From the IMG/VR virus record IMGVR_UViG_3300021957_002955, positions 1-23,756 of that record: a stretch of DNA of 23,756 bases; one strand, 5' to 3'. This DNA comes from a virus. Shown here piece by piece: positions 332-23,756 of this stretch. Below the pieces are notes generated by a model that saw only the letters and a program-made list of their open reading frames with translations, made no database searches and was not told the origin of the DNA. Positions within the stretch are counted from its first letter, which is position 1, and every line of letters begins with the position of its first letter. The position numbers and the translations under genes were made by a program.

Positions 332-507
332 TGACAACTATGGTAGCAAACTATTTCTTCTCACCCTTGTCGGGTTTGTGGTCTTCAATCGATCGTTATT
401 CGCAGGTGATTGGATATTCGAGAGCGGCATCGGAACTCGCAAGAATGGGTTTACACGAGGAATCGAAAGCGTGTATGATGGAAATAAAGAAGTTGCAAGA
501 TAAGTAG
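331..507 (+). CDS. Small hypothetical protein coupled to the DUF1127 gene
   Basis: A 58-residue protein starting at ATG 331, which overlaps the stop of the DUF1127 gene; GAAAGG at 316-321 provides the ribosome binding site. It has an aromatic N-terminus (VANYFFSPLSGLWSSIDRY) and a helical C-terminal half with the pattern RAASELARMGLHEESKACMMEI. That pattern loosely resembles the helical half of DUF1127-type small proteins, but the diagnostic DIG-xRxdI block is absent, so no family is claimed. No membrane segment or signal peptide is convincing. An in-frame ATG at 340 is an alternative start. The pairing suggests that it works with, or is regulated like, the preceding gene. Confidence 0.6.
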   Translation: MTTMVANYFFSPLSGLWSSIDRYSQVIGYSRAASELARMGLHEESKACMMEIKKLQDK

Positions 508-521
508 TAATCATATATAAT
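493..521 (+). promoter_or_regulatory. Sigma70-like promoter before the 575 gene
   Basis: TTGCAA at 493-498 and a perfect TATAAT at 516-521 are separated by 17 bases. Transcription would start near 528, inside an 8-bp inverted repeat (524-546), and read into the genes at 575, 805 and 981. The -35 box overlaps the end of the preceding gene. Confidence 0.7.
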
Positions 522-523
522 GT

Positions 524-546
524 GTAGGGGCTGTGATGGCCCTTAC
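524..546 (+). other. Stem-loop at the start of the 575-gene transcript
   Basis: GTAGGGGC (524-531) pairs with GCCCTTAC (539-546), giving eight pairs with one G-T wobble and a 7-base loop. It sits directly downstream of the -10 box, so it would form at or near the mRNA 5' end. No T-run follows, so it is not an intrinsic terminator. A 5'-end stabilising hairpin is the simplest reading. Confidence 0.45.
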
Positions 547-574
547 CTAACACACACAACACAGGAAAATAAAA

Positions 575-805
575 ATGACAAACCCTTATCAAATCCGTAC
601 AGACATTTTGCAAATGGCAAAGGAAATGTTAGACAAACAATATGACATGCAAATGGCAGTTGCTCATCAAGCAATGGATCTGTATAAAGAAAATGCTGAC
701 CAAGCATTAGATGCATACAAAAAGTATGTTCCCAAAGCAATCACTCCCGAGGAAATCAAAGAGCAAGCTGAAAAGCTATATGAGTTTGTTTCGGAGAAGA
801 AGTAA
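575..805 (+). CDS. Conserved phage hypothetical protein (NPY-IR-D type, helical)
   Basis: A 76-residue acidic, helical protein beginning MTNPYQIRTDILQMAKEML, with a C-terminal block resembling ITPEEIKEQAEKLYEFV. The arrangement (NPYxIR, then MLxxQY, then PTxEEIxxxAekLyxFV) resembles a short protein I recall from T4-like phages of marine bacteria, of unknown role. ACAGGAAAATAAAA supplies a ribosome binding site 8-10 bases before the ATG, and a strong promoter lies at 493-521. A phasin-like helix is an alternative reading, but at this length it cannot be supported. Its stop overlaps the next start (TAATG at 803-807). Confidence 0.7.
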   Translation: MTNPYQIRTDILQMAKEMLDKQYDMQMAVAHQAMDLYKENADQALDAYKKYVPKAITPEEIKEQAEKLYEFVSEKK

Positions 806-978
806 TGTATTCTGTTCAAGTGAAAGACACTGATGAAATCATTGCATTGTGTTCTCGTAGAGAGGATGCAGATGGTATTGCTAGTACTAAACTTGACGGT
901 GTTCACTATATTGTAAAAAAACTTGATGATGGGCCTCACTTGCGTGAGGTCTATCGATCTGTATACAATACGAGGTAA
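805..978 (+). CDS. Small hypothetical protein, 57 residues
   Basis: An ATG at 805-807 overlaps the stop of the preceding gene, with GGAGAAGAAG just upstream as ribosome binding site; the frame runs to TAA at 976-978. The product begins MYSVQVKDTDEIIALCSRRE and ends LREVYRSVYNTR. It is mixed alpha/beta with no membrane segment and no recognised family. The tight coupling, strong Shine-Dalgarno and phage-like codon use argue that it is real. A perfect 6-bp inverted repeat (CCTCAC TTGC GTGAGG, 934-949) lies inside the frame. Confidence 0.65.
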   Translation: MYSVQVKDTDEIIALCSRREDADGIASTKLDGVHYIVKKLDDGPHLREVYRSVYNTR

Positions 979-980
979 CA

Positions 981-1067
981 GTGGAAGCAGCATTAACAGC
1001 AGCATCAATCCTTGTTTTTCTTATAGTAGGATTCATTTGGATCGTTGTCTCTGAAAGTAAAAAGTAG
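981..1067 (+). CDS. Very small single-pass membrane protein, 28 residues
   Basis: A GTG at 981, 2 bases after the preceding stop, has GAGG at 972-975 as a ribosome binding site; the frame ends at TAG 1065-1067. The product is MEAALTAASILVFLIVGFIW followed by IVVSESKK: one hydrophobic segment (about residues 5-23) with a short charged tail. That layout is typical of phage mini membrane proteins. No family is recognised. It is supported by position and composition only. The promoter for the polymerase gene overlaps its 3' end. Confidence 0.45.
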   Translation: MEAALTAASILVFLIVGFIWIVVSESKK

Positions 1068-1073
1068 TATAAT
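1045..1073 (+). promoter_or_regulatory. Promoter of the DNA polymerase transcript
   Basis: TTGTCT at 1045-1050 and TATAAT at 1068-1073 lie 17 bases apart, 29 bases before the polymerase ATG. The 14-base string AGTATAATATAGGC around the -10 box recurs exactly at the promoter at 17087-17115, which points to a shared promoter class. Confidence 0.65.
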
Positions 1074-1101
1074 ATAGGCTTTATGTAAGTTCGGAGGGAA
1101 T

Positions 1102-3600
1102 ATGAACTTTTACACTAGCGTTAACCGATATGGTAACAACATCCTCTATAGAGGATTCGAAGATGGCAAGCGTATTGATAAGAAGATACCTTATACGCCA
1201 ACACTGTTTATTCCAACAAACAAAGAGACTGGATGGAATACACTACAGAATAATCCAGTTCAACCTGTCACATTTGACACCATGCGAGATGCAAGAGACT
1301 TCATTAAGAAGTATGATGGTGTAGACAACTTCCCAATCTATGGTACAACAAACTATGTCAATCAGTTTCTTACTGATAGATTTCCTGGTGACATTAAGTT
1401 TGATAGAGAGAAAGTCAATGTGACTTCTCTTGATATTGAGGTTCATTCAGAAGATGGTTTCCCTTTTGTTGCTAATGCTGCTCATCCTGTGACAGCCATT
1501 ACAATGAAGAGCAACCAATCAGACACATACTATGTGTGGGGGCTGAAAGATTATGATCCAGACAAGTGTCCCATTGAGGGAGTTACGGCAATCCATTATA
1601 AGAAGTGCAAAGACGAGATCGAGCTTCTATTGGATTGGTTATCTTGGTGGCATGATTCTCGGTATTGTCCCGACGTGGTTACTGGTTGGAATACTCGTCT
1701 ATTTGACTTTCCTTACCTTATCAATCGTGTAAAGAACATCATTGGTGGTGACGTCTATAAGAAGTTTTCTCCCTGGGGTGTAGTTGATCAGCGTGACATT
1801 GTCATTGCAGGTCGTACTAATATTGCATATGAGATGATGGGTATCCAACAGCTAGACTATTATGATCTATTCCGTAAGTTTGGATATGCATATGGTACAC
1901 TGGAATCATATAAGTTAGATCATGTAGCTTTTACTGTTCTTGGAGATAAAAAGCTCTCGTTCGATGAAATTGGTAATCTGCAGAATCTATACAAGCAAGA
2001 TCATCAACTGTATATTGACTATAACATCAAAGACGTTCAGCTGATCGATCGACTAGAAGAGAAGATGGGTCTGATTACTCTTGCTATGACTATGGCTTAT
2101 CGTGGTGGTGTTAACTACTCCGAGACGTTTGGTACTACATCTATCTGGGATTCTATTCTCTATCGTTTGATGTATAAAGATCAGACTGTGGTTCCTCCTA
2201 AGGTTGCTAAGATCAAAGAGAAGTATCCTGGAGCATATGTTAAGGATCCAATGACAGGTAAGCATGATTGGGTTGTATCTTTTGATCTTAACTCTCTCTA
2301 TCCTAATATTATTGTTCAATATAACATGTCACCCGAGACAATCATTGATGGAGCTATCCCTGGTATCAATGTTGATGCTATTCTAAATGATAAAGACTTT
2401 ATCTTGGATGATGACTATGCTGTAGCTGCATCAGGGTTACAATTTCGTAAAGATCAGCAAGGTGTTATTCCTAAGATCATTAAGCAATACTACGACGAAC
2501 GTAGAGCTATCAAGAATCGTATGCTTGAGGCTCAGCAAGAATATGAGTCAGGTAAGACTAAGAAGCTAGAGAACGAGATCAATACTCTCGAGAACCAACA
2601 AATGTCTATTAAGATTCTTATGAACTCTTTATATGGTGCTTTGGGTAACAACTACTTCCGATACTTCGATCGTCGTATGGCAGAGGCTATTACTACGTCT
2701 GGTCAGCTGTCTATCCTGTGGGCTCAAGAAGCTATCAACAACGAGATGAATAAGTTACTTGAGACGACAGATGTTGATTATATTATAGCTATTGATACTG
2801 ACTCATTGTATGTTCGTATGAAGCCTCTGGTAGATAAGTTTGATCCTAACTCTCCTGTAGACTTTCTTAATAAGATCTGCTCAGAACACTTTGAAGATAT
2901 TCTTGCAGCTGCTTATGATGAGCTGTTTAGAAAGATGAATGCATACGAGAATCGTATGGAGATGGCTCGAGAAGTTATTGCTGACAAGGCTGTGTGGATT
3001 GCTAAGAAGCGTTACTTCATGCAGGTGCACGATAACGAAGGTGTGCGTTATGCTGAACCTAAGCTAAAGGTTATGGGTGTTGAGGCTGTCAAGTCATCTA
3101 CTCCTCAAGTTTGTCGTGATCGTTTCAAAGAGATCTTTAATGTTATTCTAAACGAAGGTGAGGACGCCACTCAGAAGTTTGTTGCTAACTTCCGTAAGGA
3201 GTTCTCTGCTCTCAATCCAGAAGACGTATCATTTCCAAGAGGCATATCTGATATCGATAAGTGGCATGATCGCAATGATGTTTATAAGAAAGCCTGCCCC
3301 ATTCACGTAAGAGGTGCATTGCTATACAATCATCATGTATCTAAGAAAGGCTTAGACAACCGATACGAAACAGTTAAGAATGGAGAGAAGATCAAGTTCT
3401 GTTACTTGAAGACTCCTAACCCTATCAAAGAGAATGTTATCTCCTACTCGTTGAACTTACCTAAAGAGCTTGACTTACATCGATTTATAGACTATAATAA
3501 GATGTATGAAAAGTCATTTGTCGAGCCCATTCGTAACATCTTAGATGAGATTGGTTGGGATGTTGAGCCTCGAGCTACGTTGGAGGACTTCTTTGTTTAG
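1102..3600 (+). CDS. 43: Family B DNA polymerase (T4 gp43-like)
   Basis: The replicative polymerase, 832 residues (T4 gp43 has 898). All expected motifs are visible. The 3'-5' exonuclease has Exo I D111-I-E113, Exo II in GWNTRLFDFPYL, and Exo III in YNIKDVQLID. The polymerase has motif A DLNSLYPNII (D395), motif B KILMNSLYG (K504-G512), motif C DTDS (D565, D567) and the KKRY block (635-638). Both activities should therefore be intact. The start is supported by TCGGAGGGAAT just upstream and by the promoter at 1045-1073. It heads a long transcription unit, and its last codons contain the ribosome binding site of the next gene. It acts in the phage replisome with the helicase at 9637 and UvsX. 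Confidence 0.97.
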   Translation: MNFYTSVNRYGNNILYRGFEDGKRIDKKIPYTPTLFIPTNKETGWNTLQNNPVQPVTFDTMRDARDFIKKYDGVDNFPIYGTTNYVNQFLTDRFPGDIKFDREKVNVTSLDIEVHSEDGFPFVANAAHPVTAITMKSNQSDTYYVWGLKDYDPDKCPIEGVTAIHYKKCKDEIELLLDWLSWWHDSRYCPDVVTGWNTRLFDFPYLINRVKNIIGGDVYKKFSPWGVVDQRDIVIAGRTNIAYEMMGIQQLDYYDLFRKFGYAYGTLESYKLDHVAFTVLGDKKLSFDEIGNLQNLYKQDHQLYIDYNIKDVQLIDRLEEKMGLITLAMTMAYRGGVNYSETFGTTSIWDSILYRLMYKDQTVVPPKVAKIKEKYPGAYVKDPMTGKHDWVVSFDLNSLYPNIIVQYNMSPETIIDGAIPGINVDAILNDKDFILDDDYAVAASGLQFRKDQQGVIPKIIKQYYDERRAIKNRMLEAQQEYESGKTKKLENEINTLENQQMSIKILMNSLYGALGNNYFRYFDRRMAEAITTSGQLSILWAQEAINNEMNKLLETTDVDYIIAIDTDSLYVRMKPLVDKFDPNSPVDFLNKICSEHFEDILAAAYDELFRKMNAYENRMEMAREVIADKAVWIAKKRYFMQVHDNEGVRYAEPKLKVMGVEAVKSSTPQVCRDRFKEIFNVILNEGEDATQKFVANFRKEFSALNPEDVSFPRGISDIDKWHDRNDVYKKACPIHVRGALLYNHHVSKKGLDNRYETVKNGEKIKFCYLKTPNPIKENVISYSLNLPKELDLHRFIDYNKMYEKSFVEPIRNILDEIGWDVEPRATLEDFFV

Positions 3601-4567
3601 TCTTACAGTATTCAAATCTCCTCGTTGGTGGGAGAAAGAGAACCGGTTTGTATATGATAATAAGACTCATCGTCGGATTGACTTTGAGTCCTGGGACAAG
3701 TTTACTAACTTCCTATATAAGTTATCACAACGTGAACTGAAAGGAAAACAGGATGCGGAACTTATCTCGCCAGCTGTATTCAAGCTTGATTCGACAAGAA
3801 AAAGCGACAATGTACTTAATTGGGCAGGTTGGGCTGCTGTTGATGTTGATGACGTTACATTTGATGAATCAATCGAACAGTATCTTAGGGATCGTTATGG
3901 CCATTGGAACTATATTGTTTACAGTACTGCTAGTAGTACGGATACTACTCCAAAGTTTCGTGTGGTCTTTGAACTTAGCGGAGCGGTTGAGCAATCTAGA
4001 ATCAAGCACTTCTGGTGGAGTCTCAATCGAGAACTCGAAGAGATTGGAGACCCACAGACTAAAGACCTCGCGCGAATGTATTATATCCCTGCAACTTATG
4101 CTAATGCTAACAACTTTTTCTTTGTTAACCGTGGTGAGCCTTTGGATATTGACTATGTTCTAGCTCGTCATCCATATGACGATAAACGCGATTCAAAGAA
4201 CTTTATGGATCGCTTGCCTGATGCATGGCGTGAACAGATTATTGATTATCGTAAAGGTAAACTAGACAACACTTCATATGTCTGGTCATCCTATCACGAC
4301 TGTCCGTTTGTCAATAAAAAGCTACTACGAGAGTATGTGGGTATGTCTGGTATAGATGGCACTGGACGATATAGAATGATATATAAGTTAATGATTTCTA
4401 TAGCTGCTAATGCTGTAGAGAAACAATATCCTATTTCTGCAGGCCAGATAGTTGATCTTATAAAACAAATTGATAGAGAAACTGCCAACCTATATGAGAG
4501 TCGGCCGTTAGACATAGAAGCTAATAATGCATTAGAGTATGCTTATAAGAACGGAGTTATACAATGA
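3593..4567 (+). CDS. Archaeo-eukaryotic-primase (AEP/PrimPol)-like protein
   Basis: A 324-residue protein from TTG 3593, chosen because GGAGG at 3582-3586 lies 6 bases upstream; it overlaps the polymerase end by 8 bases. Visible features are WAAVDVDD (D84, D86, D87, an acidic pair like AEP motif I), YSTASSTDTTPKFRVVF (about 110-126, the position of AEP motif II), then GDPQTKDLARMYYIPA (152-167) and PLDIDYVL. This order matches replicative AEP/PrimPol domains of plasmids and phages. The catalytic histidine usual in motif II is not obvious. The C-terminal third (about 230-324) is helical and unrecognised. Its place directly after the polymerase suggests a primase role. No Toprim-type gp61 primase is in the window. 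Confidence 0.55.
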   Translation: MFSLTVFKSPRWWEKENRFVYDNKTHRRIDFESWDKFTNFLYKLSQRELKGKQDAELISPAVFKLDSTRKSDNVLNWAGWAAVDVDDVTFDESIEQYLRDRYGHWNYIVYSTASSTDTTPKFRVVFELSGAVEQSRIKHFWWSLNRELEEIGDPQTKDLARMYYIPATYANANNFFFVNRGEPLDIDYVLARHPYDDKRDSKNFMDRLPDAWREQIIDYRKGKLDNTSYVWSSYHDCPFVNKKLLREYVGMSGIDGTGRYRMIYKLMISIAANAVEKQYPISAGQIVDLIKQIDRETANLYESRPLDIEANNALEYAYKNGVIQ

Positions 4568-5340
4568 GAATTATTGCAGGCCCTTGCCAACACGAATCTT
4601 ATCAACAATCGTTAAGAATAGCTGAGCACTGTGCTGATGTATGCGCAAAGCATGGTATAGATTATATTTTTAAAGCTAGCTATGATAAAGCTAACAGGTC
4701 ACACATCGATGGTGAAAGAGGAGTAGGTTTCAATAGTACACTGTCTTCTTTTAAAATGATGAAAGAAAGAAATCCCAACCTACAAACTCTTACAGATATT
4801 CACTCAGTAGAGGATGTGTATGAGCTAACCAATCATTTCAACGATGCGGTTGATGTATTACAGATTCCTGCATTTCTGTGTCGTCAGACTGATCTTATTC
4901 AAGCTACGTGTGAGACAGATAAGATTGTTAACATTAAGAAAGGTCAATTCCTAGCTCCGTGGGATGTGAGTGGTATACTAAGTAAAACAGAAGGCGCACG
5001 TGAGGTGTGGGTAACGGAAAGAGGAACTAGTTTTGGTTATAATAATTTGGTGGTCGATTTTAATGGCATGCAGTACATGCTTGATAACTATAGCGTACCG
5101 ATCTTTTTTGACGGGACTCACTCAACACAAAAGCCTGGGCTACTCGGTAAAAGTTCTGGTGGTAATCGTGCTGACGTTGCAGGGCTCACTCGTGCTGCCT
5201 CTGCTTTGGGTGTTACTAACTTCTTCTTAGAAGTACATGAGGATCCAGAAATGGCGCCAAGTGATGGGCCAAATATGTTACACATAGAAGACTTTGAGGA
5301 GGTAGTAAATGACATCGTTAGCTATTCTTATACCCGCTAG
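4564..5340 (+). CDS. kdsA: 3-deoxy-8-phosphooctulonate (KDO-8-P) synthase
   Basis: Condenses phosphoenolpyruvate with arabinose-5-phosphate to KDO-8-phosphate, a step towards lipopolysaccharide inner core or capsule. The 258-residue protein carries the family blocks in order: IIAGPCQHES, FKASYDKANRSHIDG, LTDIHSVEDV, DVLQIPAFLCRQTDLI, NIKKGQFLAPWDV, ERGTSFGYNNLVVDF, FDGTHSTQKPG, EVHEDPEMAPSDGPNML. Bacterial KdsA is about 280 residues, so it is slightly short but complete. The ATG overlaps the preceding stop (ATGA, 4564-4567), with CGGAGT upstream. The next gene starts 32 bases before this one ends. It lies between replication genes, so the sugar cassette was inserted into, or is co-expressed with, the replication operon. 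Confidence 0.96.
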   Translation: MRIIAGPCQHESYQQSLRIAEHCADVCAKHGIDYIFKASYDKANRSHIDGERGVGFNSTLSSFKMMKERNPNLQTLTDIHSVEDVYELTNHFNDAVDVLQIPAFLCRQTDLIQATCETDKIVNIKKGQFLAPWDVSGILSKTEGAREVWVTERGTSFGYNNLVVDFNGMQYMLDNYSVPIFFDGTHSTQKPGLLGKSSGGNRADVAGLTRAASALGVTNFFLEVHEDPEMAPSDGPNMLHIEDFEEVVNDIVSYSYTR

Positions 5341-5968
5341 GTACGACTCAACAAGGTTCCCTGGAAAACCTTTAGCCGATCTGGGTGGAACACCAATGGT
5401 TGAACGTGTTTACAACACCTGCGTTGAAGCAGGATTAGACACATATGTTCTTACAGATGATGAGCGCATTGGCACTTTGTTTAATTCTGACAACGTCATA
5501 TATAGTGATCAAGAGTTTCACAATGGAACTGAACGATGTGCTTATGCTTCGGGGATGTTACCTTATGATGCATTCATTAATGTTCAAGGAGACATGCCTG
5601 ACGTCACTGTTGATATGATTCATAGGGTGGGTCAACTAGCTCCTACAGGATTAATAACAGCCTGGACAGAAATGCCTGAGCTGTTGCAATCAGATCCAAA
5701 TTGTGTTAAAATAGTACATAATAACATTACAGCTCATTGGTGTGGAAGAGGTCTTACGATGGGAGATAGACACATAGGAATATATGGATATCCTAAGGAT
5801 CTACTGGCCCAGTATGGACAGAAGCCAGACCGCTATGAAAACCACGAAAGGTTAGAGCAACTAAGATGGTTGGCAAACGGACACAAACTACGTGTACGTA
5901 GAGTTGACTTTAATGGTATTGAAATTAACACACCAGAAGATGCGAGGATATGGAATGCTAGCAGGTAA
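5309..5968 (+). CDS. kdsB: CMP-KDO synthetase (3-deoxy-manno-octulosonate cytidylyltransferase)
   Basis: Activates KDO with CTP to CMP-KDO for transfer to lipid A or capsule. The 219-residue protein shows the nucleotide-binding signature IPARYDSTRFPGKPLADLGG at residues 8-27, PMVERVY, the metal-binding NVQGDMPDV (about 90-98) and a C-terminal EINTPEDARIW. Bacterial KdsB is about 245-255 residues; the shortening is in the middle, where the dimerisation region lies. GAGGAGG just upstream supports the start inside the end of kdsA. With the preceding gene it gives two of the steps to CMP-KDO. KdsD and KdsC are not in the window, so the host would supply arabinose-5-phosphate and the phosphatase. 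Confidence 0.95.
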   Translation: MTSLAILIPARYDSTRFPGKPLADLGGTPMVERVYNTCVEAGLDTYVLTDDERIGTLFNSDNVIYSDQEFHNGTERCAYASGMLPYDAFINVQGDMPDVTVDMIHRVGQLAPTGLITAWTEMPELLQSDPNCVKIVHNNITAHWCGRGLTMGDRHIGIYGYPKDLLAQYGQKPDRYENHERLEQLRWLANGHKLRVRRVDFNGIEINTPEDARIWNASR

Positions 5969-6296
5969 AGTTTGGGGAAACACGGAGCTTGTAGAAGCTA
6001 ATGGTGCTTTGGAGTTTCATCGTATTGAAATGAATAAAGGTGGAGTATGCTCTAAACATCTTCACGAATTCAAATGGAATGGTTTTTATGTTGAATCTGG
6101 TCGTATGCTTATTCGTGTATGGCAGAATGATTATGATTTGGTTGATGAGACTATTCTTGATCCTGGGATGTACACTAAAGTAAAGCCTGGTGTATATCAT
6201 CAGTTTGAATGTCTTGAAGATGGAGTGGCATTTGAGCTCTATTGGGCAGAGTTTAATCACAATGATATTGTTAGAGAAACAGTAGGGCATAAATGA
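5955..6296 (+). CDS. Cupin-domain protein
   Basis: A 113-residue single-domain cupin. Motif 1 is seen in SKHLHEFKWNGFYVESGRMLI (H residues about 34 and 36, then G/E of the barrel) and motif 2 in VKPGVYHQFECLEDGVAFELYW (PGxxHxF). Such proteins bind a metal and often act as sugar isomerases or epimerases; the shape recalls the cupin of phosphomannose isomerase-type or sugar-modifying enzymes. The start at 5955 has GAGGA nearby and lies inside the end of kdsB; an in-frame ATG at 5940 is possible. Its position between kdsB and a cytidylyltransferase argues for a role in surface sugar synthesis. The substrate is unknown. Confidence 0.75.
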   Translation: MLAGKVWGNTELVEANGALEFHRIEMNKGGVCSKHLHEFKWNGFYVESGRMLIRVWQNDYDLVDETILDPGMYTKVKPGVYHQFECLEDGVAFELYWAEFNHNDIVRETVGHK

Positions 6297-6709
6297 AAAG
6301 GGAGGTAATAGGCTTTACAGCATCTACCTTTGACTTGCTTCATGCTGGACATATTGCTATGCTAAGAGAAGCTAAAGAACAATGTGATCATTTAGTGTGT
6401 GGTCTGCAAGTAGACCCATCTGTTGATAGAAGTGATAAGAACGCTCCAGTGCAGACACTAGTCGAACGTTGGACTCAACTACAGGGCGTTAAATATGTGG
6501 ATGAAATCATACCATATCAGACCGAAACAGATCTTGAAGATATTCTAAAACTATTCAACTTTGATATCCGAATTATTGGCGAAGAGTATAAAGATGGGAA
6601 GTTTACTGGTAGAGCCACTTGTGCTGCCAGAGGAATTGAGATACACTTTAACAAAAGAGATCATAGATTCTCAACAAGCGATCTAAGAGAAAGAGTTAAG
6701 AATGCCTAA
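6293..6709 (+). CDS. Cytidylyltransferase-like protein (TagD/HldE-C type)
   Basis: A 138-residue nucleotidyltransferase of the HxGH superfamily: GFTASTFDLLHAGH at residues 7-20 with H17-A-G-H20, and a C-terminal FSTSDLRERV that corresponds to the ISTT-type motif. Length and motifs fit the glycerol-3-phosphate cytidylyltransferase (TagD) or ADP-heptose synthase C-domain class, which activates a phosphorylated sugar or polyol with CTP or ATP. The start overlaps the cupin stop by 4 bases (ATGA). It belongs to the surface-sugar cassette. The exact substrate cannot be read from the sequence. Confidence 0.85.
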   Translation: MKREVIGFTASTFDLLHAGHIAMLREAKEQCDHLVCGLQVDPSVDRSDKNAPVQTLVERWTQLQGVKYVDEIIPYQTETDLEDILKLFNFDIRIIGEEYKDGKFTGRATCAARGIEIHFNKRDHRFSTSDLRERVKNA

Positions 6710-7553
6710 GATATTGATTGTGGGTCATGGGTTTGTTGGTCAGGCTGTGGATTATGGGTTTAGTCATCCTCAAGTAGAAAAAACAATAGTGGACCCCAAG
6801 TATGGAACCGATCTGGATAGTATTGATATCTCTTTATTTGACATCGCTTTTGTTTGCGTACCAACCCCGATGGGAAACGATGGGGCTGTTGATAGTAGTA
6901 TTATTGATAATGTATTGGATCGGTTAACTAAATATGACATTACAACTGTTGTTAAGTCAACAGTTACTCCTGACATTGTCACTAACTGGCCCATCAATGT
7001 AGTTTACAATCCTGAATTCCTCACTGAGAAGTCTGCTAACGAGCAGTTTGTATCCCCACCTTTTCATATATTGGGTGGGTGGCCTGATGCAACAAAGTAT
7101 GTTGAGAAGGTCTATGAGGAATATAGTTTATGCAATCTATGCCCATCTCTCCACATGACATTGGAAGAGGCATCGTTCGTTAAGTATACAATAAACAGCT
7201 TTTTGGCTATGAAGGTTCTATTCTTCAACCAGTTGTATGACGCAGTAAATGAATCAAATGCAAACTTTGCAACAATTGTTAAGGCTGTTGGTATGGATAA
7301 CCGCATTGGATCTTCACACACTAAGGTACCTGGCTTTGATGGCAAACAGGGATATGGGGGAGCTTGCTTTCCTAAAGACACATCGGCGTTTACTAAGTTC
7401 TCTGATAAGTTGACCTTATTGGAGAAATGTATTATAATTAACAATGATTACAGATCACAATATGAACTAGACAATCGGGAGATTGAACAACATGTCAATT
7501 ATGGACAAACTAAAAAAGAACTCCAAGATCAAATCGACGGATATCCTGTCTGA
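6702..7553 (+). CDS. UDP-glucose/GDP-mannose dehydrogenase-family protein, short form
   Basis: An NAD-dependent sugar-nucleotide dehydrogenase of 283 residues. The N-terminus has the Rossmann glycine motif IVGHGFVGQAV, followed by FVCVPTPMG and VVKSTVTP. The central domain shows VYNPEFLTEKSA, then EEASFVKYTINSFLAMKVLFFNQLYD and the catalytic block GYGGACFPKD with C222. Full-length enzymes are about 390-440 residues; this one lacks nearly all of the C-terminal UDP-binding domain. It may use a partner or a different substrate, or make an altered product such as an uronic acid donor. It overlaps the cytidylyltransferase by 8 bases and the uvsX start by 62 bases, and is the last gene of the sugar cassette. 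Confidence 0.88.
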   Translation: MPKILIVGHGFVGQAVDYGFSHPQVEKTIVDPKYGTDLDSIDISLFDIAFVCVPTPMGNDGAVDSSIIDNVLDRLTKYDITTVVKSTVTPDIVTNWPINVVYNPEFLTEKSANEQFVSPPFHILGGWPDATKYVEKVYEEYSLCNLCPSLHMTLEEASFVKYTINSFLAMKVLFFNQLYDAVNESNANFATIVKAVGMDNRIGSSHTKVPGFDGKQGYGGACFPKDTSAFTKFSDKLTLLEKCIIINNDYRSQYELDNREIEQHVNYGQTKKELQDQIDGYPV

Positions 7554-23665: not shown

Positions 23666-23694
23666 TTGACAATATATTGGGTATGATGTAATAT
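23666..23694 (+). promoter_or_regulatory. Promoter of the tmRNA gene
   Basis: TTGACA at 23666-23671 is followed after 17 bases by TAATAT at 23689-23694. A perfect TATAAT at 23694-23699 is 22 bases from the -35 box, so it is less likely to be used. Transcription would start around 23701, exactly before the RNA segment. Confidence 0.6.
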
Positions 23695-23697
23695 ATA

Positions 23698-23756
23698 ATC
23701 CGTAAGCGTTAATAACGGATATATGGACCGCGGGGCAGTACCGCGCAGCTCCACCA
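23698..23756 (+). ncRNA. ssrA: tmRNA acceptor piece (circularly permuted ssrA gene, partial)
   Basis: The last bases form a T-arm: stem CGCGG (23729-23733), 7-base loop GGCAGTA, stem CCGCG (23741-23745). This is followed directly by CAGCTCC and ACCA (23746-23756), the same acceptor 3' strand as E. coli tmRNA (CAGCTCC-A-CCA), including the U that makes the alanine G3-U70 pair and discriminator A73. GGAC precedes the T-stem, as in tmRNA. Upstream is another stem, ATCCGT/ACGGAT (23698-23703 with 23715-23720). Only a protein gene and promoter lie upstream, so the CCA-bearing piece comes first: the permuted order of alphaproteobacterial tmRNA. The coding piece, which should begin GGGGCTG, would lie beyond the window. 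Confidence 0.75.

Follow-up and report, generated by a model that had tools for sequence, protein, structure and literature searches.

Two-piece tmRNAs make up 53 of 133 distinct phage tmRNA structures, and 50 of these 53 came from marine or aquatic samples (PMC9004378). At present, 79 unique phage tmRNAs are listed in the database (PMC11915505). Methylophilales phage Melnitz, which infects the gammaproteobacterium OM43, is a described two-piece case with an alpha-type tmRNA, and Pelagibacter phage Mosig is among the isolates that carry both a tmRNA and a riboswitch (PMC9004378). A two-piece tmRNA in a marine phage is thus an already published kind, and the window studied here, the whole stretch of 23,756 nucleotides that forms one virus record, adds another member. 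Judged by their description, Melnitz and Mosig resemble the window phage in that an alpha-type permuted tmRNA is found in a marine T4-like phage with an early-type promoter just upstream. A glutamine riboswitch was reported with the Melnitz gene, whereas the window and the scanned relatives contained no riboswitch at gathering score. When the tmRNAs of two relatives (L020 and L063) were compared with the phage collection by blastn, only short matches and no closely similar tmRNA gene were found. With the Rfam family RF01849 and the merged model RF04321, the window end shares the T-arm GGC.GTACC and the encoded CCA, and the relatives with a complete gene also share the gene order, the acceptor stem, GGATCGAC and the tag. 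Like the RNA of mycobacteriophage DS6A, which consists of a tRNA-like domain only, the gene is phage-encoded and tmRNA-like; the DS6A RNA has no tag frame, whereas the relatives of the window gene do.

The acceptor piece at the end of the record

A sequence-only reading had claimed that the window ends in a T-arm, CAGCTCC and ACCA with no tRNA body upstream, and that this is the order of a permuted ssrA gene, in which the acceptor piece precedes the coding piece. Direct reading of the last 91 bases gave the same order of motifs: TAATAT is followed by GTAAGC, GTTAATAAC, GGATATAT, GGAC, CGCGG, GGCAGTA, CCGCG, CAGCTCC and ACCA (Table 1). The last base of the record is the A of CCA, and ARAGORN called no tRNA or tmRNA in the window. 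The T-arm loop matches the alpha_tmRNA consensus, and the CAGCTCC strand shows the U70 side of the G3.U70 alanine identity pair.

Table 1. Features at the 3' end of the window (positions in the 23,756-nt record).
Feature	Position	Strand	Details
Na+/Pi-cotransporter-like gene, 160 aa	23144..23626	+	PF02690, 59.2 bits (Pfam)
Sigma-70-like promoter	23666..23694	+	TTGACA 23666-23671, 17-nt spacer, TAATAT 23689-23694
Acceptor piece of permuted tmRNA (ssrA) gene	23695..23756	+	Rfam partial matches and relatives-only covariance model
Distal P2 strand GTAAGC	23702..23707	+	pairs with GTTTAC, 5' of the resume codon, in the coding pieces of relatives
Proximal P2 strand GGATATAT	23717..23724	+	pairs 8/8 with ATGTATTC of short-form coding pieces
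GGAC	23725-23728	+	read directly
T-arm	23729..23745	+	5-bp stem CGCGG 23729-23733 / CCGCG 23741-23745, loop GGCAGTA
3' acceptor strand	23746..23756	+	CAGCTCC 23746-23752 and ACCA 23753-23756; U70, discriminator A, encoded CCA

In a search of the last 357 bases with relaxed thresholds, the two best Rfam families were RF04321, tmRNA_permuted (33.8 bits, E 2.3e-5, model positions 1-63, truncated 3'), and RF01849, alpha_tmRNA (24 bits, E 2.1e-5, truncated). Both scores are lower than the gathering cut-offs (47 and 50 bits, respectively), because the matches are truncated at the contig end. As only half a gene is present, the lack of an ARAGORN call and of any Rfam match at gathering in the window is expected. 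Nine acceptor pieces from other viral contigs, with the window left out, were used to build a covariance model, which gave 81.1 bits (E 5.2e-18) for the acceptor piece and 13.2 bits for its runner-up in the window. Together with the complete genes found in relatives, these matches bear out the permuted order that had been read from the letters, and confirm that the window end is the acceptor piece of a permuted two-piece tmRNA gene. The terminal region folded no better than its shuffles (z -1.17), and a local hairpin, ATCCGT/ACGGAT, was rejected: it does not occur in the relatives and was also the source of a chance microRNA match.

The Na/Pi-cotransporter gene directly upstream of the acceptor piece has 506 related stretches in viral contigs and is a conserved neighbour of the tmRNA in several relatives. 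Neither its protein nor the window DNA had close counterparts in the phage collection (no match and no direct neighbours, respectively). The candidate promoter between the two is not significant alone, because shuffled regions contain 2.2 such promoter-like sites each on average. TGTACA/TTTACA-17-TAATAT was recognised by eye at the equivalent position in L106, L110 and L171, and other relatives differ. The TTGACA-17-TAATAT element would start a transcript a few bases before the acceptor piece or at it.

Complete genes, pairing and tags in relatives

The coding piece is absent from the window because the record stops at CCA. It was not found elsewhere in the window, including the start, where a circular record might have placed it; there is no terminal repeat either, and three exact patterns taken from the window end retrieved no overlapping contig. 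The earlier expectation of GGGGCTG, a tag frame and a tRNA-like domain downstream therefore held in relatives with the Na/Pi gene, the record itself ending before that part. Complete permuted tmRNA genes lie 3' of the Na/Pi gene in L020/L133, L046, L063, L067 and L103, and a permuted tmRNA also follows this gene in L077. L020 and L133 are one contig, which is colinear with the window over ~14.5-23.6 kb and carries the whole gene. The relatives score 68-118 bits with RF04321, above gathering, and in each the CCA is followed by an intervening hairpin (IVS), GGGGCTG, the tag frame and the tRNA-like domain. The IVS of viral genes is usually 25 to 226 nt long and usually ends in TGAT, after which GGGGCTG begins; its ends pair together (mean stem 10.3, versus 6.4 for shuffled partners). 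A DNA polymerase gene lies 3' of the tmRNA in L063 and L103. In L098, a permuted tmRNA at 1431-1783 is surrounded by over ten tRNA genes in a row (352-3189).

The two pieces of the gene pair with each other. The acceptor stem was paired at 7/7 positions in 142 of 143 cases in a repeated count that did not require pairing beforehand. G3.U70 is kept in 81/81 unique relatives, alongside three compensated acceptor-stem variants, in a first relative set for which paired acceptor and T-stems had been required, which biases the G3.U70 counts. Among 17 short forms (see below), 95.5% of the cells in proximal P2, distal P2, the T-stem and the acceptor stem are paired. Covariation in these four helices amounts to 40 cells changed on both sides, as against 0-11 in slid controls, and 0/500 shuffles were as high; the initial requirement biases helices 3-4 of this test, and helices 1-2 were never required to pair. 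Distal P2 pairs 6/6 in all 17 sequences, with A-U, G-C or G-U at one pair. The strands of the window itself match the partner strands of the short form at 7/7, 8/8 and 6/6 positions, and only 0.7% of shuffles reach the 8 pairs that proximal P2 forms with ATGTATTC.

These results bear on whether the window end could instead be a 3' fragment of a host ssrA gene, which is a favoured attachment site, left by integration or excision or as a decayed copy. Such ssrA fragments have been described in prophages (PMC9004378, PMC4131195), and half the gene is what the window displays. However, relatives carry a complete gene at the equivalent place, all window strands still match their partner strands, the gene content is T4-like, and the break is the end of the record rather than a junction. 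We therefore consider a host fragment very unlikely.

An example of the tags in relatives, from genes that follow the Na/Pi gene, is ANDNFAPSGFALAA. Most tags are of the -LAA/-IAA type, 70 among 89 unique genes parsed end in ALAA (for 6 of these 89, the parse wrongly gave a short form), and a tag frame ending in AA is present in all parsed viral genes but a few that were cut by the contig end or had diverged. For L046, ARAGORN wrongly read the tag as AGSWPLA instead of ANDNFAPSGFALAA. Judging from these sequences, the tag of the window phage, unseen beyond the record end, would be close to ANDNFAPSGFALAA. Three contigs (L114, L123 and L158) have an unusually long tag, ANDNFKPELSFDFDGVLEAA, ending in LEAA, and three others (L143, L160 and L174) a very short one of 9 residues, ANANYSLAA.

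The tags argue against a tRNA-like decoy of the DS6A type, which would have no tag frame, titrate SmpB and block host trans-translation. A phage RNA of this type exists, a similar molecule inhibits tmRNA (PMC4131195, PMC11915505), and the window contains no tag; yet a tag frame ending in AA is found in the relatives linked to the Na/Pi gene and in nearly all parsed viral genes, and the short form retains an A at -4 relative to the resume codon. A decoy is thus even less probable than a host fragment. The T-arm-to-CCA stretch is common to many contigs and has differing continuations, so an assembly fork plausibly explains why the record breaks exactly at CCA. The same circumstance might suggest a host tmRNA end fused to phage DNA where the contig stops, but such an artefact hardly deserves credence, as L046 (80% over 602 bases) and L103 (77%) each give one unbroken alignment that spans the window from the Na/Pi gene to the end of CCA.

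Short and long forms of the two-piece tmRNA

The distance from GGGGCTG to the resume codon is bimodal in the relatives. Short forms, of which 23 are unique, have 46-48 nt, unlike RF01849 and RF04321, and the long form has about 79-89 nt, as these families do; six apparent 55-nt spacers were misparsed long forms. Helix P2 and the resume codon of the short form are just 10-11 nt apart, too close to leave room for pseudoknot 1. By position, pseudoknot 1 would occupy the additional nucleotides of the long form. The A at -4, the counterpart of A86 in E. coli, is kept in 23/23 short forms. Short-form permuted tmRNAs were found in ten contigs (L020, L046, L106, L110, L113, L137, L138, L151, L166 and L171) and at the loci that match a strict pattern; most were overlooked by ARAGORN, and Infernal detects them at 67-89 bits. 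A gene for a small, apparently exported protein (MKIAAIAAAALV...) lies 3' of the tmRNA in four of them (L020, L106, L110 and L171).

The strict short-form pattern matched 42 viral contig stretches and none of the 385 alphaproteobacterial genomes sampled, within which SAR11 was not distinguishable. A looser version hit one of 115 alphaproteobacterial genomes, at a GC-rich, chance-like site, and the long-form pattern matched 19 of 115, a few of which look like chance. The window groups with the short form because its acceptor sequence, GTAAGCGTTAATAACGGATRTATGGAC, is that of L046, L106 and L110, and the tmRNA of this phage is probably an unusually short version. Past position 23756, an IVS hairpin is expected, followed by GGGGCTGA, ~47 nt and a GCA AAY tag ending in -LAA.

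Pseudoknot 1 is near-universal among aligned tmRNAs (PMC1168896). On balance, we lean slightly towards the existence of a marine phage clade, the window phage included, whose two-piece tmRNA has lost pseudoknot 1. In this natural minimal tmRNA, P2 would lead straight into a single-stranded leader of 10-11 nt; it would be mostly overlooked by ARAGORN and absent from the sampled alphaproteobacterial genomes.

Proposed function, phage and host

Starting from the acceptor piece observed in the window and the architecture, covariation and tags observed in its relatives, we consider it very likely that a T4-like, probably marine phage has a functional permuted ssrA gene whose 5' half forms the window end and which would act as follows. 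Transcription would start at a promoter of the gene's own, 3' of the Na/Pi-cotransporter gene, and the resulting precursor would fold with its hairpin IVS, which host tRNA-processing enzymes would excise, and the two resulting RNAs would stay joined via the acceptor stem and helix P2. Host alanyl-tRNA synthetase would charge the tmRNA through G3.U70, and the charged tmRNA would enter stalled ribosomes together with host SmpB. Translation would then resume on a short tag ending in -LAA, so that the ribosome is released and the broken peptide marked for proteolysis. The phage may benefit by keeping ribosomes free while mRNAs are degraded. No SmpB gene was found in 12 related records, and the RNA would therefore have to use that of the host.

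The T4-like nature of the phage is seen in its DNA polymerase and UvsX, which are 54% and 79% identical to those of Phage C48C1, respectively; the record of that phage contained no permuted tmRNA match. The suggestion of an alphaproteobacterial host is weakly supported: the T-arm is indeed of alpha type, but an alpha-type tmRNA does not fix the host, because the host of Melnitz is OM43 and the T-arm motif also occurs in Saccharibacteria. In genome contigs (L201-L279), both Saccharibacteria and Alphaproteobacteria commonly carry the T-arm/acceptor motif GGGGCAGTACCSNNCAGCTCCACCA. Elsewhere in the window, genes for a DAHP/KDO-8-P synthase-like enzyme, cytidylyltransferases and a UDP-sugar dehydrogenase stand in a row (4564-7553), a probable phage surface-sugar module, and a DUF1127 protein is encoded at the window start (17-331).

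The window adds one more phage, from a T4-like and probably marine group, to those with a ribosome-rescue RNA of their own. Two-piece tmRNA genes of phages are undercounted, as contig ends cut them off and ARAGORN overlooks most of the short forms. In E. coli, pseudoknot 1 is replaceable, and it is dispensable for tagging in the laboratory (PMC4236655); with the short form, nature would offer a test of this dispensability.
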